Translations under genes and position numbers: made by a program
The notes under the pieces: model-generated
Told to the model about the DNA's origin: nothing
The model's database searches: none
The model's input: the letters and a program-made list of their open reading frames with translations, nothing else
In this document: in pieces, positions 13,838 to 58,472 of the stretch
Layout: each line of letters opens with the position of its first letter
Numbering within the stretch: position 1 is the first letter of the stretch
Source of the DNA: Actinomycetota bacterium
GTDB lineage: Bacteria; Actinomycetota; Actinomycetes; Streptosporangiales; Streptosporangiaceae
Direction of reading: 5' to 3'
Assembly (NCBI GenBank): GCA_027313705.1
Contig: DAHVDE010000115.1
Span: 62,001 to 126,000, forward strand
DNA: 64,000 nt

Positions 13838-14971
13838 TCAGTTGGCCGGCGGCTTCGCCAGCGCCGGATGAATGACCGCGCCATCGCGCGTGATCACGAC
13901 GCCGGCGACGAGTTCGTCGTCCAGATCAACGGTGAACGCGCCGTCCTTGATCAGGTAGGTGAGCAGCGAACTAACGTTGCGGGCATACATGGCAGAGGCA
14001 GCCGCTGCCATCGAGGAAGGCAGGTTGTCCGCCCCGATGATCGTGACTCCGTTGTCGGTCACGACCGTCTCGCCCGCGACCGAGGACTCGACGTTGCCGC
14101 CAAGCTCGCTGGCACCCATGTCCACCAGGACAGAGCCGGGTGCCATGGCCTTGATAGCCGTGCTGGTGACCAGCATCGGAGGTCGCCGGCCTGGCACCTG
14201 AGCCGTGGTGATCACCACGTCATGCCTGGCGATATGGTCGGCTAGCTCGGCCTGCTGCGCGGCTCGCTCGGCGTCAGTGAGAGCGCGGGCATAGCCGCCA
14301 GCACCCGCGGCATCCTGCACGGAGGCCAGTTCGATGAACGTGGCGCCGAGCGACTGCGCCTCTGTCTTAGTCTCAGGCCGGACGTCGTAGGCGCTCACGA
14401 CCGCGCCGAGTCGCCTCGCCGTGCCGATCGCCTGAAGGCCGGCCACGCCGGTACCTAGCACGAGCACCTTGGCCGGCCGCGCGGTTCCCGCCGCCGTGAT
14501 CAGGAGAGGAAAGAACCTTCCGAAGGCCGCCGCCGCTATCAGGGCCGCCTTATACCCGGCGATATTGGCCTGTGAGGTAAGTGCATCCATCGGCTGGGCA
14601 CGGGAAAGCGTGCGCGGTATCAGGTCGAGGCTGACCGCGGTCACCCCGGTGGCAGCCAGCTGCTCGACGAAATCGGGATCGGTGAGCGGGGCAAACAGGC
14701 CGAGCACGGCCTGGCCAGCACGGAGGCGACCGAGCAGTCCGCTGTCCGGCCTGGCCACCATGAGAACGGCGTCTGCGGTCGGGATCTCGGCGGCGGAGAC
14801 AACTGTCGCCCCGGCCTCCGTATAGGCCTCGTCGGCGAAGAAAGCCCCGGTCCCCGCATCTCGTTCTACAAGTACTTCATGACCAGCTGATCTCAGCTTG
14901 GCTACCGCTTCAGGTACGAGCGCCACCCGGCGCTCCGCGGGCCAGGTCTCTTTGACCACGGCGACCTTCAT
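13838..14971 (-). CDS. pntAA: NAD(P) transhydrogenase subunit alpha, NAD-binding part
   Basis: The 377-residue soluble domain I of the transhydrogenase binds NAD(H). It is related to alanine dehydrogenase: the N terminus MKVAVVKETWPAERRVALVPE is followed by a Rossmann loop (VLVLGTGVAGLQAIGTARRLGA) and the later conserved VLVDMGASELGGNVE. The ATG at 14971 has a GAGG sequence about 8 bases upstream; the longer frame reading from 15064 is unlikely. It is the first gene of the operon, whose promoter must lie in the region shared with the repeat array. Confidence 0.95.
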   Translation of the reverse strand: MKVAVVKETWPAERRVALVPEAVAKLRSAGHEVLVERDAGTGAFFADEAYTEAGATVVSAAEIPTADAVLMVARPDSGLLGRLRAGQAVLGLFAPLTDPDFVEQLAATGVTAVSLDLIPRTLSRAQPMDALTSQANIAGYKAALIAAAAFGRFFPLLITAAGTARPAKVLVLGTGVAGLQAIGTARRLGAVVSAYDVRPETKTEAQSLGATFIELASVQDAAGAGGYARALTDAERAAQQAELADHIARHDVVITTAQVPGRRPPMLVTSTAIKAMAPGSVLVDMGASELGGNVESSVAGETVVTDNGVTIIGADNLPSSMAAAASAMYARNVSSLLTYLIKDGAFTVDLDDELVAGVVITRDGAVIHPALAKPPAN

Positions 14972-15135: not shown

Positions 15136-15580
15136 CGGCTACCCCAGCCGGCTACCCCAGCCGGCTACCCCAGCTCCGTCACAACGTGGGGTCCGGGGCA
15201 CCTGCTCCGTCACAACGTGGGGTCCGTGCCCTGGCCGGCCGGGGCCGGCTACCCCAGCTCCGTCACAACGTGGGGTCCGGGGCACCTGCTCCGTCACAAC
15301 GTGGGGTCCGTGGCCTGGCCGGCCGGGGCCGGCTACCCCAGCTCCGCCACAACGTGGGGTCCGGGGCCTGGCCGGCCGGGGCCGGCTACCCCAGCTCCGT
15401 CACAACGTGGGGTCCGGGGCACCTGCTCCGCCACAACGTGGGGTCCGGGCCTGGCCGGCCGGGGCCGGCTACCCCAGCTCCGCCACAGCGTGGGGTCCGG
15501 GGCACCTGTTCCGTCACAACGTTGGCGCTTGGTCCGGTTGGTCAGGAGTAGCTCCGTTACAACCTTGGCGCTGGGCTCTG
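15136..15580. repeat. tandem repeat array 1 (CACAACGTGGGG family)
   Basis: The array begins with three 13-bp units of GCCGGCTACCCCA and continues with ten copies of the core CTCCGYCACAACGTGGGGTCC, eight well preserved (near 15174, 15204, 15258, 15288, 15341, 15394, 15424, 15477) and two degenerate at the end (15508, 15550). A CCGGCCGGGGCCGGCTACCC segment alternates with single or paired cores, giving a higher-order period of 83-84 bp. ACCCCA and TGGGGT flank each full unit and could form short stems. The whole 697-bp gap between pntAA and the gene at 15669 is this array plus about 160 bp of leader and a G-rich tail; no gene is seen. Confidence 0.95.
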
Positions 15581-15668: not shown

Positions 15669-15917
15669 ATGAGCGAGCCTGATGCTCGGGCGGGGGACGA
15701 GTCCGACGAATTGGCGGCGCGACTACTGAGCGCGTACCGGCTGCTAGCTGGGCTTCGCGTGCCCGTCGAGGAGCGAATACGCTTGAATCTCCGTTTTGTG
15801 GCTATCTGTACGTCGCTGAAGATGCCCGGATCGAGCAGAGACAGTTGCGCGCTCAGACTTGACCAGCTCATGGCGGAAGCCGGGCAGGCGGAGGCTAACT
15901 GCGCCGAAAGGGTTTGA
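15669..15917 (+). CDS. small hypothetical protein
   Basis: An 82-residue acidic, helical protein beginning MSEPDARAGDESDELAARLL, with amphipathic segments (LSAYRLLAGLRVPVEERIRL) and two Cys residues. I do not recognise the family. Codon choice and the Ala/Leu/Arg/Glu pattern look like a real actinobacterial small protein, and the ATG at 15669 has G-rich sequence upstream but no ideal Shine-Dalgarno sequence. It is transcribed towards the HU gene, away from the repeat array. Confidence 0.55.
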   Translation: MSEPDARAGDESDELAARLLSAYRLLAGLRVPVEERIRLNLRFVAICTSLKMPGSSRDSCALRLDQLMAEAGQAEANCAERV

Positions 15918-17790: not shown

Positions 17791-20625
17791 TTACCTCCTG
17801 CCCAGCGAGTCAAGTGCGGCCATCGCGTCGGCCAGAAGGTCCTCGGCGTCCTCGAGCCCGATCGAGAATCGCACTGAACCTGGGTCTATGCCCGCCGACT
17901 TGAGCGCGGCCTGATCTAGCTGGCGGTGAGTGGTAGAGGCGACGTGGCTGACCTTAGTGTGCGTACCGCCCAGGGAAGCGGCGACCTTGGCCAGCCGCAG
18001 CTGGTCGGCGAACGCCATGCCTGCCTGCGCACCCCCGTAGGGTGCCACGGTCACGATCGCGCCGAACCTGGTGCCTTCCGGGCCTGCGTCGAACTGCCTG
18101 CGCGCCAGTTCATGTCCTGAGTGCGCGGTCAGGCCAGGGTAGTAGACGTGGCTCACCGCCGGGTGCCTGGCCAGGCCAGCCGCGACGACCTGCGCGGTCG
18201 CGCATTGCCTGCGCACCCGGAGCGGCAGCGTCTCAAGTCCGCGGCGCAGCGTGTAGGCGTCGTCAGGGGCGAGTGATCCGCCGAGGTCGATCCTGAGTTT
18301 GCGCACTTGCGCGATGACATCAGGCCGGCCGGTGACCACGCCTCCGGTCACATCTGAATGACCGCAGAAATACTTGGTGGCCGAGTGCAGCACCAGATCG
18401 GCGCCGTGCTCGAGCGGACGGCAAACCACCGGAGGCGCCAGCGTGGAGTCGACGATGAGCAGCGCCCCGGCGCTGTGCGCGAGCCCGGCCAGGGCGGCGA
18501 GGTCGGCGACCGCAACGGTCGGGTTCGCGAGTGTCTCTACGTATAGGATCGAAGTGCCAGGACGCAGCGCCGCCTGGACCTGGCCAAGGTCGGTTACGTC
18601 AACGAAGTTGGTCTGCACGCCGAAATTGGCGGCCACATTACGCAGGAAGCCGTAGGTGCCGCCGTACACGGCAGAAGAAGCTACGACATGCGCTCCGGCT
18701 CTGGTGAAGGCCAGGAAGATGGTGGAGATCGCGGCCATCCCCGATGCGAAGGCCTGCGAGGTCACCTGGTAGCCGAGATTGACCCCCTCGAGAGCGGCGA
18801 CCGCCGAGCAGAAGGCGGTCACCGTCGGGTTGTCGATCCTGCTGTAACTGAAGCCAGGCGCGGCGTCGGCGAGTACCGCGGCGTACTCGGAGCTTGTCGT
18901 GAAGGCGAACGTCGAGCTTCGGTAGACCGGGGTGGCGAGGGGTTGCTGCGGCACGGCAGGCGGCGGGGGCAGGTGCACCGCGCGAGTGTTCTCACCAGGC
19001 CGCCGCTGTCCCTGCGCGGTGGCTCCCTGATCCGCAGCTCGCGGCGCCTCGATGGCCAGCAGCCTATTTGAGGTTCCCGCCGCCTGCGGCGGCATCTGGC
19101 TGGCACCAAGCTGGCCGGCCGGTGTGGAGAACAACCTGGGATCGGTCACCTGGCCGGGATCGTAGCCGGCGCCGATGGCGCCCGCCATCGGCGGCAGCGC
19201 CGCGGCGGACGAGGCAATCGTCGCCGACCCTGACGGCAGGGATCCTGGCGGTACGGATGCTGGCGGCAGCGATCCTGGCGGCGGCAGCGGCGCAAGCGGA
19301 GGCTGGGCGGCCGGGAATGGCTGGCCAGGCGGCGTGGAGTTACCAGGGTGGGCGGCCGGGCCTGCCAGGGACGCAGGGCCAGGGTGGGCGGTCGGGCCGG
19401 CCAGGGGGGCAGGGCCAGGCGGGGGGGCCGGGTTAGCCAGCGCGGCGGGGTTTGCTAGGGAGGCGGGGCCAGCCGGGAGCGAACGCTGTGCGGGCGGGCC
19501 TGAGTACCGTGGGTCGCTTCTGGCGCCTTGGTCTGGGTACTGCGGGCCTGGTGCTGCCGATGGGTACCTGGGATCGGGCGAGCTGCTCGGGTAGCGGGAA
19601 TCGGCTAGCAGGCCAGGAGGGACTCGCTGCTCATAGCCTGGCGGTCGCTGGGCCGGCTGCCTGGCCTGATAACCGGGCTCTGGCTGCTGGTTGCCATAGC
19701 GCGGATCCTGGCCTGTCCTGGTCGATGGCTGGCCCGCAGCGACAACCTGCCCTGCCGGGGGCAGCGCAGCCTGCGGCGGAACCGATGGTGCCTGCTGGCC
19801 GGAAGAATGAGAGTTTGAAGGCATCGGCCCGGCAGCAGGGCGCCTGCTGGCGGGCGGCGGTTCGGCGTACCTGGAGTTGGCGCGCGGCGGTCCAGAATCA
19901 CTGCGCCTTCCTGTGGCAACCGGCCGGCCGGGCGGCGGGTTACGCCTGGGGTCTTCAGATTCGCCTTTCGGCCAGCCATTAGCAGGCCAGGCGGGCTGGC
20001 GCGGCTCGCCGCGCGCTCCAGCACCGTAAGCGGGCTCCTCGTAGGGCGTATCGCCGAATCCGCCCGTATCGTAAGGCGGCCTGTCATGGGACCCAGCGCT
20101 GTAGGTCCTTCTGTCGTAATCTTCGTCGTAGCCGCCGTTGTTTTGGCCGCCGCCTTCGCGAGCCTGCCTGTCGTAACGGCCGGCGTAGCCGCCGCTGTCA
20201 AAGCCGCCGCTGTCAAAGACACCGCTGTCGTAGCCGGCCTTGTCGTAGCCGGCCTTGTCGTAGCCTGCGCCGTCAAAGACGCCGCTGTCGTAGTCGGCGC
20301 TGTCGAACACGCCGCTGTCGTAGCCAGGCCCGGCAAAGACGCCACTGTCGTCTGAGTCTGGATCGTAGGAGTACGACCTCGTGCTTTCTGAGCCTGCAGG
20401 GTCAGCCGGCCAGTTGCCGGTGTCGTAAGGGCGACCGCGTCGAGCGGTACTGGCCTTGGGCGCTGGCCCGCGTGTCTGGCTCATCGACCTGGCATCTCCG
20501 TAACGGGGGTCGGGGTCTTGGCGGGACGGGCCTGGCTGCGGCTGACCCTGGCGCCTTGAGCGGGGCGGCGCACCCTGGTCGTCGCGGGCGTCGGGAGCGG
20601 GCCTTGGCCACTTCTCAGATGCCAT
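17791..20625 (-). CDS. transsulfuration-type PLP enzyme with long disordered N-terminal extension
   Basis: The last 399 residues (546-944) are a complete cystathionine gamma-synthase/methionine gamma-lyase-family enzyme: YSRIDNPTV near the front, substrate and PLP loops ([17 protein letters not shown]), Asp in [12 protein letters not shown] Lys751 in [11 protein letters not shown] and Arg in [11 protein letters not shown]. The first 545 residues are low complexity: Pro/Gln/Gly/Ser/Arg-rich with a cluster of YDSGVFD- and GYDKA-type repeats (about 20170-20350) and later GPASLA-type repeats. No enzyme of this family normally carries such an extension. The frame is open throughout, and the ATG at 20625 overlaps the gpsA 3' end by 11 bases, which supports one long gene. 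An internal start near residue 540 is the main alternative. Confidence 0.82.
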
Positions 20626-48143: not shown

Positions 48144-49348
48144 CGGCGTGGCGGGCAGGCGAGGCGTGGCGGGCAGGCGAGGCGTGGCTGGCAGGAGAGC
48201 GTCAGGCCAGGGCGGCGCTGAGTTTCCTGGCCGAGCCTGGTGACCCGTTGCTCGGCGGGCTGCTCAGGTCGATGCCGGCCTGCGCCGTGCTGGCCCGGCT
48301 GGCCGACGGCATGATCCCTGAGCTGGCGGCGCTTTTCCCTGTGGCTGCGCAGTCGGCACCGCCAGAACCTGGTCAGGTGCAGCGCTCGCTCAAGCGGATG
48401 CGGTCGCGGCTTGAAGAACTGCCCTCGCCAGGGTCGCTGGATGCCTGGGAGAGCGATGGAATCCGCCTGGCGTGTCCCGGCGAACCAGAGTGGCCGACTC
48501 AGCTCGACGATCTCGGTGACCGCCAGCCGGTGGCCTTGTGGATACGGGGAAAAGCCGACCTGCGCTTCGCCTGCCTGCGCTCCGTCGCGGTGGTCGGATC
48601 ACGGGCGGCGACCGCCTACGGCGCGCTGGTGGCGTCCGAGCTCGGTGCCGATCTCGCGGACCGCGCCATGGCGGTGATCTCCGGTGGCGCCTACGGCATC
48701 GACGCCGCCGCGCACCGGGGTGCGCTTGCCGCCGGCGGGCCGACGATCGCGGTCATGGCCTGCGGTCTGGCCTTCTGCTATCCCAGAGGCCATGCCGAGT
48801 TGTTCACGGCTATCGGCGAGACCGGCGTGCTCGTCAGCGAGAGCCCGCCAGATGGCGCGCCGACCAGGCCGGGTTTCTTGATCAGGAACAGGCTGATCGC
48901 CGCGCTAAGCCGCGGCACCGTGGTCGTCGAGGCAGCGTTGCGCAGCGGCGCGCTCAATACCGCTAAGCACGCCAGGGACCTTAACCGCCCGGTTATGGCG
49001 GTGCCAGGGCCGGTCACCTCCGCGCAGTCAGCCGGTTGCCATGACCTGATCATGAACATGGGGGCCTACTGCGTCACCGGGTCCGCCGACGTTCTCGAGC
49101 TGATCGCGCCGGCCGGCCGGGCTGACGGTGACCTGGCTCATGGTCCTGTTTTGCCTGCCGATCAACTGGACGAGGTCACGGCCTCGGTCCTGCGGACGAT
49201 GAACACCAAGGCCGGCCGCGGCCCTGCCACCATCGCCACGCTGGCCGGCGTCGACCTCGACACGGCGATGCGGTGCCTTGGCCTGCTATCGGCAGCGGGC
49301 CTGGCGGAGCGATGCGATCAGGGCTGGCGCGTCAGGAAGGTCAGCTGA
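48140..49348 (+). CDS. dprA: DNA-processing protein DprA
   Basis: The 402-residue RecA loader binds single-stranded DNA. The Rossmann core has SVAVVGSRAATAYGALVASEL, ISGGAYGIDAAAHRGAL and FLIRNRLIAALSRGTVVVEA, and a C-terminal winged-helix remnant follows. The GTG at 48140 overlaps the comM stop. The N terminus carries a triplicated AWRAGE unit (AWRAGEAWRAGEAWLAGE) from a 18-bp tandem repeat at about 48145-48195, a recent expansion. An upstream GTG at 48122 is less likely. Confidence 0.94.
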   Translation: MTAWRAGEAWRAGEAWLAGERQARAALSFLAEPGDPLLGGLLRSMPACAVLARLADGMIPELAALFPVAAQSAPPEPGQVQRSLKRMRSRLEELPSPGSLDAWESDGIRLACPGEPEWPTQLDDLGDRQPVALWIRGKADLRFACLRSVAVVGSRAATAYGALVASELGADLADRAMAVISGGAYGIDAAAHRGALAAGGPTIAVMACGLAFCYPRGHAELFTAIGETGVLVSESPPDGAPTRPGFLIRNRLIAALSRGTVVVEAALRSGALNTAKHARDLNRPVMAVPGPVTSAQSAGCHDLIMNMGAYCVTGSADVLELIAPAGRADGDLAHGPVLPADQLDEVTASVLRTMNTKAGRGPATIATLAGVDLDTAMRCLGLLSAAGLAERCDQGWRVRKVS

Positions 49349-56280: not shown

Positions 56281-57402
56281 TTGGAGTTGGTTCAGGTTAA
56301 GCCGCTCCGGGCTGGCCGTATGCGGCCTTTGCGGCACTTGGCCGATCTCGACCAGGACGGCCGTCGTGCCGCCGTCGCCGAGCTTGGCCTGCCCGGTTAC
56401 CGCGCGGACCAGTTGTCCAGGCACTACTTTGGTCGCCTGGCCGATTCGCCAGCCGACATGACCGATCTGCCGGCCAGCCTTCGGCAGACCCTCACCAAGG
56501 CGCTGCTTCCCGAGTTGCTGACCGCCACTCGCGAACTGACCTGTGACCAGGGCATGACCAGGAAGACGCTCTGGCGCGCCGCTGACGGCTCGCTGGTCGA
56601 ATCCGTGCTTATGCGTTACCCGAACCGGGTGACCTTGTGCGTGTCATCGCAGGCAGGCTGCGGAATGGCCTGCCCGTTCTGTGCCACCGGCCAGGCTGGC
56701 CTGACCCGCAACCTCTCTGCGGGGGAGATTATTACCCAGATCTTCAAGGGGGCACAGGCGCTGGCCGCCGGCCAGCTTAGCGGCGGCCAAGGCCGGGTGT
56801 CGAACATTGTCTTCATGGGCATGGGCGAGCCCTTGGCCAACTACGGTCCAGTGCTGACCGCTATCCGTCGCCTCAGCGATCCGGTGCCTTCGGGATTCGG
56901 GATCTCACAGCGCTCGATCACGTTGTCGACTGTCGGGCTGGTGCCCGCGATCCGCAAGCTGGCAGGCGAAGGGCTGACGGCGAGGCTGGCGGTATCGCTC
57001 CACGCTCCTGACGACGAGCTACGCGACGAGCTCGTGCCTGTCAACCGTCGCTGGCGGGTCGCCGAGGTGCTCGACGCCGCCTGGGACTACGCGGCCGCGA
57101 GCAGCCGTCGCGTGTCGATCGAGTACGCGATGATCCGCGACGTCAACGACCAGTCCTGGCGCGCGCGGGCACTAGTCAGCCTGCTTGCTGGCCGTCCCGC
57201 TCACGTGAACCTGATACCACTCAATCCGACACCTGGCTCGAGGTGGACAGCCTCAGACCGTGCCGTGGCGGCTGAGTTCGAGGAAACCCTGTCCAGGGGC
57301 AATATTCCGGTCACCGTGCGGGACACCAGAGGCAGGGAAATCGACGGCGCCTGCGGCCAGCTAGCCGCCGCCCACAACCCCGCCCCTAACCCCCGCCCCT
57401 AA
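56281..57402 (+). CDS. rlmN: dual-specificity rRNA/tRNA adenine-C2 methyltransferase RlmN
   Basis: The 373-residue radical-SAM enzyme methylates A2503 of 23S rRNA and A37 of some tRNAs. The cluster motif [14 protein letters not shown] holds the three Cys ligands. Also seen are [13 protein letters not shown], the two further catalytic Cys ([10 protein letters not shown] region, GACGQ-type end) and [12 protein letters not shown]. The TTG at 56281 begins [12 protein letters not shown]; the ATG at 56320 is an alternative. Its last ten residues and stop are encoded by the 13-bp tandem repeat, so the C terminus has been replaced by repeat sequence. Confidence 0.95.
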
Positions 57403-57429
57403 CCCCCGCCCCTAACCCCCGCCCCTAAC
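57378..57429. repeat. four 13-bp tandem units at the rlmN stop
   Basis: CCCCGCCCCTAAC is repeated four times without change. Each unit contains TAA, and because 13 is not a multiple of three the stops fall in all three frames. A CCCCCGCC/GGGGGCGG dyad follows at once and may act as a terminator. Confidence 0.9.
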
Positions 57430-57464
57430 CCCCGCCGGGGGCGGGGCGGGGCGGGGCGGGGGCG

Positions 57465-57690
57465 CATGTTGTGGCGGCGCATGTTGTGGGGGTTGGCGGC
57501 TGGGGCGGGGCGGGGGCGGGGGCGCACGTTGTGGCGGTGTGGGGGTTCTGGTCCCCGCGTTGTGGCGGTGTGGGGGTTGGCGGCTGGGGCGGGGCGGGGG
57601 CGCACGTTGTGGCGGCGCATGTTGTGGCGGTGTGGGGGTTCTGGTCCCCGCGTTGTGGCGGTGTGGGGGTTGGCGGCTGCGGCTGCGGCT
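57465..57690. repeat. repeat array 2 (same core family as array 1, inverted)
   Basis: Seven copies of YGTTGTGG(C/G)GG are interspersed with TGTGGGGGTT and GGGGCGGGGCGGGGGCGC blocks. An 88-bp unit around 57526-57613 repeats with small changes. Two copies read GGTCCCCGCGTTGTGGCGG, whose complement matches the array-1 core at 17 of 19 positions. The plus strand is rich in G runs that could form G-quadruplexes. The 407-bp gap between rlmN and the acyltransferase is the 13-bp repeat, this array and about 120 bp of G-rich leader; no gene is credible. Confidence 0.92.
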
Positions 57691-57809: not shown

Positions 57810-58472
57810 ATGTCTGGAATGCCGTCCTTGGTTCGGTGGCGCCGCCGGGTTGCCACCCGGCTAGTGCATGCTGCCTGGCGTAGGGCCAGGGATGCGGGCA
57901 TGATCACGGCGGATACAGATGCTGGCCGGCGGTTTTCCCGGTTCGGCCGGGGTTCGCTGATGGCGTTTCCTACCGGGTCCGTGTACGGGGAGCCCTGGAT
58001 CGAGGTCGGCGAGGACACCATGATCGCCGAGTGGACGTCGGTATGCGCGGGCATGATGCCCGGTCATGACCTCGGGCCGGAGCCCGTGCTGCGAATCGGT
58101 GACCGGTGCGTGATCGGGCGCGGCAGCCACATCGTGGCGCACAGTTCCATCGACATCGGTGACGACGTGTATACCGGGCCATACGTCTACATCACCGACC
58201 AGAATCACGGCTATACCGATCCTGACCTGCCGATCGGGCGTCAGTGGCCGGTGAACTTGCCGGTCAGGATCGGGGCGGGCACCTGGCTTGGCACCGGGGT
58301 GATCGTGCTGCCAGGGGCGGTGATCGGCAGGAACGTGGTCGTCGCGGCCGGGTCGGTGGTGCGGGGTGAGATTCCCGACCTTTGCGTGGTCGCGGGCGTG
58401 CCGGCCCGCGTGATCAAGGGGTTCAGCCCTGAGGCTGGCTGGTCGAGGCTGACGAGCCAGGTGCCTGACTAG
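57810..58472 (+). CDS. hexapeptide-repeat (LbH) acyltransferase
   Basis: A 220-residue protein whose second half has left-handed beta-helix hexapeptide repeats (VLRIGDRCVIGRGSHIVA, IGAGTWLGTGVIVLPGAVIG, then VVVAAGSVVRGEIPDLCVVAGVPARVI), with an acceptor loop ITDQNHGYTDPD containing the likely catalytic His. It belongs to the xenobiotic/sugar O-acetyltransferase class. The N-terminal 45 residues are basic. The ATG at 57810 is preferred over 57783. The acceptor is unknown; a cell-envelope sugar is plausible. Its stop overlaps the end of the convergent gene by 4 bases. Confidence 0.88.
   Translation: MSGMPSLVRWRRRVATRLVHAAWRRARDAGMITADTDAGRRFSRFGRGSLMAFPTGSVYGEPWIEVGEDTMIAEWTSVCAGMMPGHDLGPEPVLRIGDRCVIGRGSHIVAHSSIDIGDDVYTGPYVYITDQNHGYTDPDLPIGRQWPVNLPVRIGAGTWLGTGVIVLPGAVIGRNVVVAAGSVVRGEIPDLCVVAGVPARVIKGFSPEAGWSRLTSQVPD

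Follow-up and report, generated by a model that had tools for sequence, protein, structure and literature searches.

The proteobacteria, with their RAYT transposases, are the best-known hosts of REP-like repeats. In mycobacteria, whose genomes are high in GC, the MIRU/VNTR loci are intergenic arrays of units in head-to-tail order. In the proteobacterial REP/BIME system, the repeats carry a GT(A/G)G head, the RAYT gene is flanked by two inverted REPs, and neighbouring elements alternate in orientation; the roles that have been proposed include protein binding and transcription termination (PMC2817692). A broader class is formed by the intergenic stem-loop sequence (SLS) families, which the sections cited here describe as repeated, intergenic and species-specific elements with a common predicted stem-loop (PMC2267715, PMC1590033). 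A further arrangement is represented by the DUS of Neisseria and the USS of Haemophilus, short cores found genome-wide, whose inverted pairs form terminator hairpins behind genes according to the relevant sections of PMC1852404 and PMC2267715.

This article examines a repeat family of an actinomycete of the Streptosporangiaceae, starting from two arrays in a window of 64,000 nucleotides (the whole stretch of DNA that was analysed; contig DAHVDE010000115.1, assembly GCA_027313705.1). Like REP/BIME, the family consists of imperfect palindromes that are intergenic, clustered, present in tens to hundreds of copies and species-specific in sequence (PMC2817692). It differs in lacking the GT(A/G)G head, as checked in the consensus of the family weight matrix and in the sister alignment (PMC2817692), in lacking a RAYT/Y1 gene in five genomes of the genus, in the single rather than alternating orientation of units within its arrays, and in its longer stems (20–26 bp). 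The features given above for the SLS families all recur here, but their cited descriptions differ from the present case, with its tandem arrays of half-elements and its related-looking sister hairpins with swapped stems; the family is not among the lineages named in the cited section of the SLS survey (PMC2267715). With DUS and USS it shares a short core that is repeated genome-wide and whose inverted pairs give hairpins behind genes. Those systems, as the cited sections describe them, comprise hundreds to thousands of invariant 9–12-mers that also occur in genes, and go with a competence system; the copies found here are far fewer, few are genic, and no fixed short core is common to hairpins with different stems (PMC1852404, PMC2267715).

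The arrays resemble MIRU/VNTR loci in being head-to-tail and intergenic in a high-GC genome, but the unit is only about 31 nt long and palindrome-derived, and many loci are dispersed single copies. An intrinsic terminator shares with the intact copies a GC-rich hairpin closely behind a stop codon; the tested stretch of array 2 lacks such a fold, and the U tract of a terminator is absent, with no T run following the hairpins in the loci read by eye. We would place the family in the broad class of intergenic stem-loop repeats, as a new member. The sequence-only reading knew of no named family with this core, and Rfam likewise gave no match above the gathering score for the window and two sister loci. 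A literature search, with most subscription papers outside its reach, did not turn up an account of a family like this one from the group.

Two arrays of one unit

Array 2 (57465–57690) lies between rlmN, which encodes a radical SAM rRNA methyltransferase (56281–57402, + strand), and a gene for a hexapeptide acyltransferase (57810–58472, +) whose start, MSGMPS, is common to the sister species. The seven YGTTGTGG(C/G)GG copies that had been reported here were all located, at 57467, 57482, 57527, 57558, 57605, 57620 and 57651. When the window was scanned with the array-1 core CCGCCACAACGTGGGGTCC, allowing at most three mismatches, 12 matches were obtained against 0.04 expected from shuffled sequences: eight on the + strand in array 1 (15176–15498) and four on the − strand in array 2. 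Two of the latter, 57550–57568 and 57643–57661, have two mismatches each, in agreement with the earlier claim of 17 of 19 matching positions on the opposite strand. The accompanying statement that the spacers differ completely was too strong; the aligned 27-nt units of the arrays, CCCCCACACCGCCACAACGCGGGGACC and CCCCAGCTCCGTCACAACGTGGGGTCC, are identical at about 21 of 27 positions, and the unit that the arrays share is therefore longer than the core.

Six units of array 2 were listed with the family weight matrix, which gave no match in the reversed control; all are on the − strand. A weak one (19 bits) marks the left edge at 57459–57485, and is followed by CCCCCACACCGCCACAACGTGCGCCCC at 57519–57545 (46 bits), by CCCCCACACCGCCACAACGCGGGGACC at 57550–57576 and again at 57643–57669 (the two units with 17/19 matches to the array-1 core), by a unit with a degenerate left part at 57597–57623, and by CCCCCACACCGCCACAACATGCGCCGC at 57612–57638. 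Both copies of CCCCCACACCGCCACAACGCGGGGACC and the degenerate unit were also found by the core scan. At a higher level, the array is composed of two repeats of about 93 bp (57495–57680, −). Repetitive DNA reaches further left than 57465, by way of a 13-bp tandem repeat, CCCCGCCCCTAAC, in 4.5 copies (57378–57436, +), which spans the rlmN stop codon and abuts the array. The C-terminus of RlmN, ...HNPAPNPRP*, is encoded by this C-rich repeat; in the congener G004, the protein ends in ...HSTRIA*. The tandem repeat, with its telomere-like C-rich look, has rewritten the end of the protein. About 60 nt separate the rlmN stop codon from the weak unit at the left edge, and array 2 fits a stop-proximal placement.

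In array 1 (15168–15529, +), nine units of this family follow one another head to tail, starting at 15168, 15199, 15252, 15283, 15336, 15389, 15420, 15472 and 15503. A pntAA-like gene (AlaDh/PNT; 13838–14971, −) diverges from it on the left, and a small ORF of 82 amino acids (15669–15917, +), for which no Pfam match was found, lies on the right. This ORF, which has an HU-type gene on its other side, is conserved in the congeners G001 and G004 in the same position. Two further tandem repeats in the window, at 20187–20351 (30-bp period) and 48145–48199 (18-bp period), are unrelated to the core.

Of the four congeners (G001–G004), G001 and G004 could be read across the orthologous gaps of both arrays and were compared. 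The array-2 gap is short and core-free in G004. In G001 (locus L277) it is also without the core, and holds another private tandem, GGCTGATGCGGGCGT, in four copies; the rlmN–acyltransferase gap thus gains private arrays in different species. The core is absent from the array-1 gap of both genomes. Since both gaps are core-free in both species, the two arrays are additions of this lineage; the sisters carry similar hairpins elsewhere, not at these gaps.

A dispersed, species-private family

In 1.17 Mb of the genome, no intergenic 8-mer exceeds its expected count as strongly as CACAACGT, with 66 intergenic occurrences (82 in total, both strands counted) against 2.4 expected from trinucleotide frequencies. 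A 44-column weight matrix for the family, with the reversed sequence as control, identified 121 units in this first sample, of which 114 lie between genes; the control had none. In 2.54 Mb, about half of the genome and made up of contigs selected partly for having matches, 172 units were found at 51 loci, again with none in the control. Chance or low complexity as the source of the cores is rejected by these controls and by the 0.04 matches expected in the window.

The dispersed family that had been proposed from the two arrays is borne out, with the same core recurring in different contexts. This genome has 48 occurrences of the 16-mer YCACAACGTGSGSNCC, and none of 150 other genomes of the family, including four congeners, has more than three; a scan of 85,000 species with a 19-mer gave 48 scattered single matches. 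The exact core form is private to this species. The sequence-only reading had named confinement to two loci, unconserved in sister strains, as evidence against a repeat family. The loci number in the dozens, and that part of the concern falls away; the arrays themselves are indeed missing from the corresponding gaps of G001 and G004.

The intact element and its derivatives

Three forms can be distinguished among the loci, namely intact palindromes, direct dimers of a half-element (often a single copy behind a gene), and head-to-tail arrays of half-elements with a period of about 31 nt and higher-order periods of 84–93 nt. Both arrays in the window belong to the last form. An intact copy is some 56 nt long and forms an imperfect palindrome, CCCCCACGATGTCRCAACGTGGGYGC-TATA-GCACCYGCAAYGTGACATCGTGGGGG; an example on contig C115 near 89.8 kb reads CCCCCACGATGTCGCAACGTGGGTGC-TATA-GCACCTGCAATGTGACATCGTGGGGCC, and others are found on C26 and C71. 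They fold into long hairpins, with z scores of −6.7, −7.1 and −7.5 relative to shuffled sequences. The core is one arm of a palindromic element of about 56 nt and not a free-standing 19-mer; of the earlier suggestion that a core element spreads, the spread in this lineage holds, and the independence of the core does not.

The arrays behave differently. Those with at least four units are almost all in one orientation, although a few inverted dimers exist. In the 141-nt stretch of array 2 that was tested, the C-rich strand had a z score of +0.88 relative to shuffles, and the G-rich strand was marginal (−2.0). A hairpin within the single 25-nt unit was considered and rejected; no covariation of pairing was found inside it, and the C at position +9 breaks the pairing in about 28% of units. 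The poor folding of the array-2 stretch and the lack of covariation argue that the arrays are not terminators by virtue of a hairpin. They look like derivatives, in which a half-element has been multiplied and the hairpin lost, as judged by folding of the array-2 stretch.

Placement relative to genes

Genes were called with a home-made dicodon caller, which missed rlmN. An element is present in 15 of 267 convergent gaps and in 31 of 1383 other gaps, a 2.6-fold enrichment (p = 0.007; with the comparison limited to gaps of 100 bp or more, p = 7e-5). In co-directional gaps, the element is nearer the upstream stop codon in 20 of 21 cases, at a median distance of about 40 nt (p = 2e-5). A hand count in the relatives, which leaves out six G004 loci (L095–L104), found the hairpin nearer the stop in 9 of 10 co-directional cases. 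About 10 loci, array 1 included, lie between genes called as divergent and have no adjacent 3′ end, so that a position next to a 3′ end is a tendency with exceptions. Among the 21 co-directional gaps, 10 have the C-rich strand in the sense direction and 11 have it in the antisense direction; such a random orientation of the core suits a palindrome that works both ways.

Genes that end beside an element use a TAA stop in 24 of 53 cases, compared with 282 of 2078 others (p = 4e-8), and these TAA codons often directly precede CCCCCG, as at 57378–57436 in the window.

Similar hairpins in sister species

Long hairpins whose arm begins with the same CACAACGTGGGG occur in G004. A covariance model built from six of these matched 137 times in G004, 54 times in G001 and once each in G002 and G003; since most sister elements match on both strands, these counts correspond to roughly 70 elements in G004 and 27 in G001. 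In the genome studied here, the model gave one insignificant match (E = 0.8). The stem sequence differs between sister species, and one congener has several stem subfamilies. What recurs in G001, in G004 and in the intact copies of this genome is the stem base ACANCG and the apex GCTATAGC; the resemblance of base and apex suggests that the family and the sister hairpins may share common descent. The apex alone was rejected as a dispersed motif, GCTGTYGYNNNRGCARCAGC being no commoner than its control across the family. Similar dispersed hairpins with stems of their own occur in a few other genera, for example CACGTGGGGAAGATTACTG... in G023 and GTCGTGGACTCCGCGCTGTT... in G040.

In the aligned G001 and G004 stems, 18 of 26 pairs have two-sided changes. 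The covariation score is 0.361, compared with 0.179 in shuffled and at most 0.10 in slid alignments, and it leans towards structure, since the stems were aligned by fitting them to the model. The presence of similar hairpins on private stems in sister species makes the family look like a new lineage, of REP-like repeats or of gene-end hairpins, and not a one-off.

Possible function and origin

We consider it reasonably probable that these repeats are an undescribed REP-like family of gene-end hairpins, with arrays that represent amplified halves and with a putative function at mRNA 3′ ends. Transcribed from either side, the intact element of about 56 nt would give one long GC-rich hairpin. Copies come to rest or persist directly after stop codons, and there the hairpin would most likely form an orientation-independent mRNA 3′ end, as a putative terminator or a block to 3′ exonucleases that works without a U tract. 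In this species, one half-element was further multiplied into head-to-tail arrays, with replication slippage as the probable mechanism, and these arrays may do without the putative function.

The main rival explanation holds that the palindromes are selfish or neutral, of REP or MITE type, copied by a transposase and without host function; the bias towards 3′ ends would then reflect only counter-selection in promoters and genes. Species-private amplification, presence or absence at orthologous gaps, the stem subfamilies of one congener and the copies in divergent gaps all agree with this, and it is a possible explanation, though an unlikely one. The REP-associated tyrosine transposase that the sequence-only reading had proposed to look for is missing; Y1_Tnp (PF01797) is absent from this genome and four congeners (G000–G004, 77–99% complete), in a search validated by matches in control genomes such as E. 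coli, and mobilisation by RAYT or IS200 was rejected on this basis. No autonomous partner was seen between close pairs of elements except for one transposase-like fragment. The stems also keep their pairing through two-sided changes, suggesting that the hairpin is under some constraint, although the same pattern could arise when a palindrome is copied. The fragment, recognised by eye, lies at C115:90970–91528 between elements at about 89.8 and 92.9 kb.

Two explanations based on the core strand itself appear far less probable. It is very unlikely that the elements are rut-like RNA tracts, rich in C and poor in G, that favour termination by Rho. The core strand does have much C and CA and little G, it is unstructured over the tested array stretch, and the loci lie behind stop codons. 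Such a site needs one particular strand, however; the C-rich strand has the sense direction at no more than 10 of the 21 co-directional gaps, and at array 2 it is antisense to both rlmN and the acyltransferase gene. Equally improbable are polar protein-binding sites for chromosome organisation (KOPS-like, parS-like or for a nucleoid protein) in which CACAACG would be the sequence recognised. Within units, the core sequence is better conserved than the pairing, and the C-rich core is on the C-excess strand at 27 of 38 loci (p = 0.014); this GC-skew bias is weak, however, array 1 violates it, the stems of the sisters differ in sequence, and a core that is private to one species is unlike known segregation sites.

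A wider form of the gene-end hairpin reading would extend it to a system across species of the family, in which many copies of one private stem sit on the common base (ACANCG) and apex (GCTATAGC), and are kept uniform within a genome and swapped between species by a copying machinery other than Y1 or by a co-evolving stem-binding protein; this we regard as rather doubtful. In a high-GC lineage without RAYT, long hairpins at gene ends whose stems are private to each species raise the questions of what copies or homogenises them, and of whether transcripts end there.

The arrays are also of practical interest, for assembly and as possible typing markers. Contigs C49, C76, C78 and C96 each stop inside an array of the family or no more than about 0.4 kb away from one, which suggests that the arrays break the assembly.
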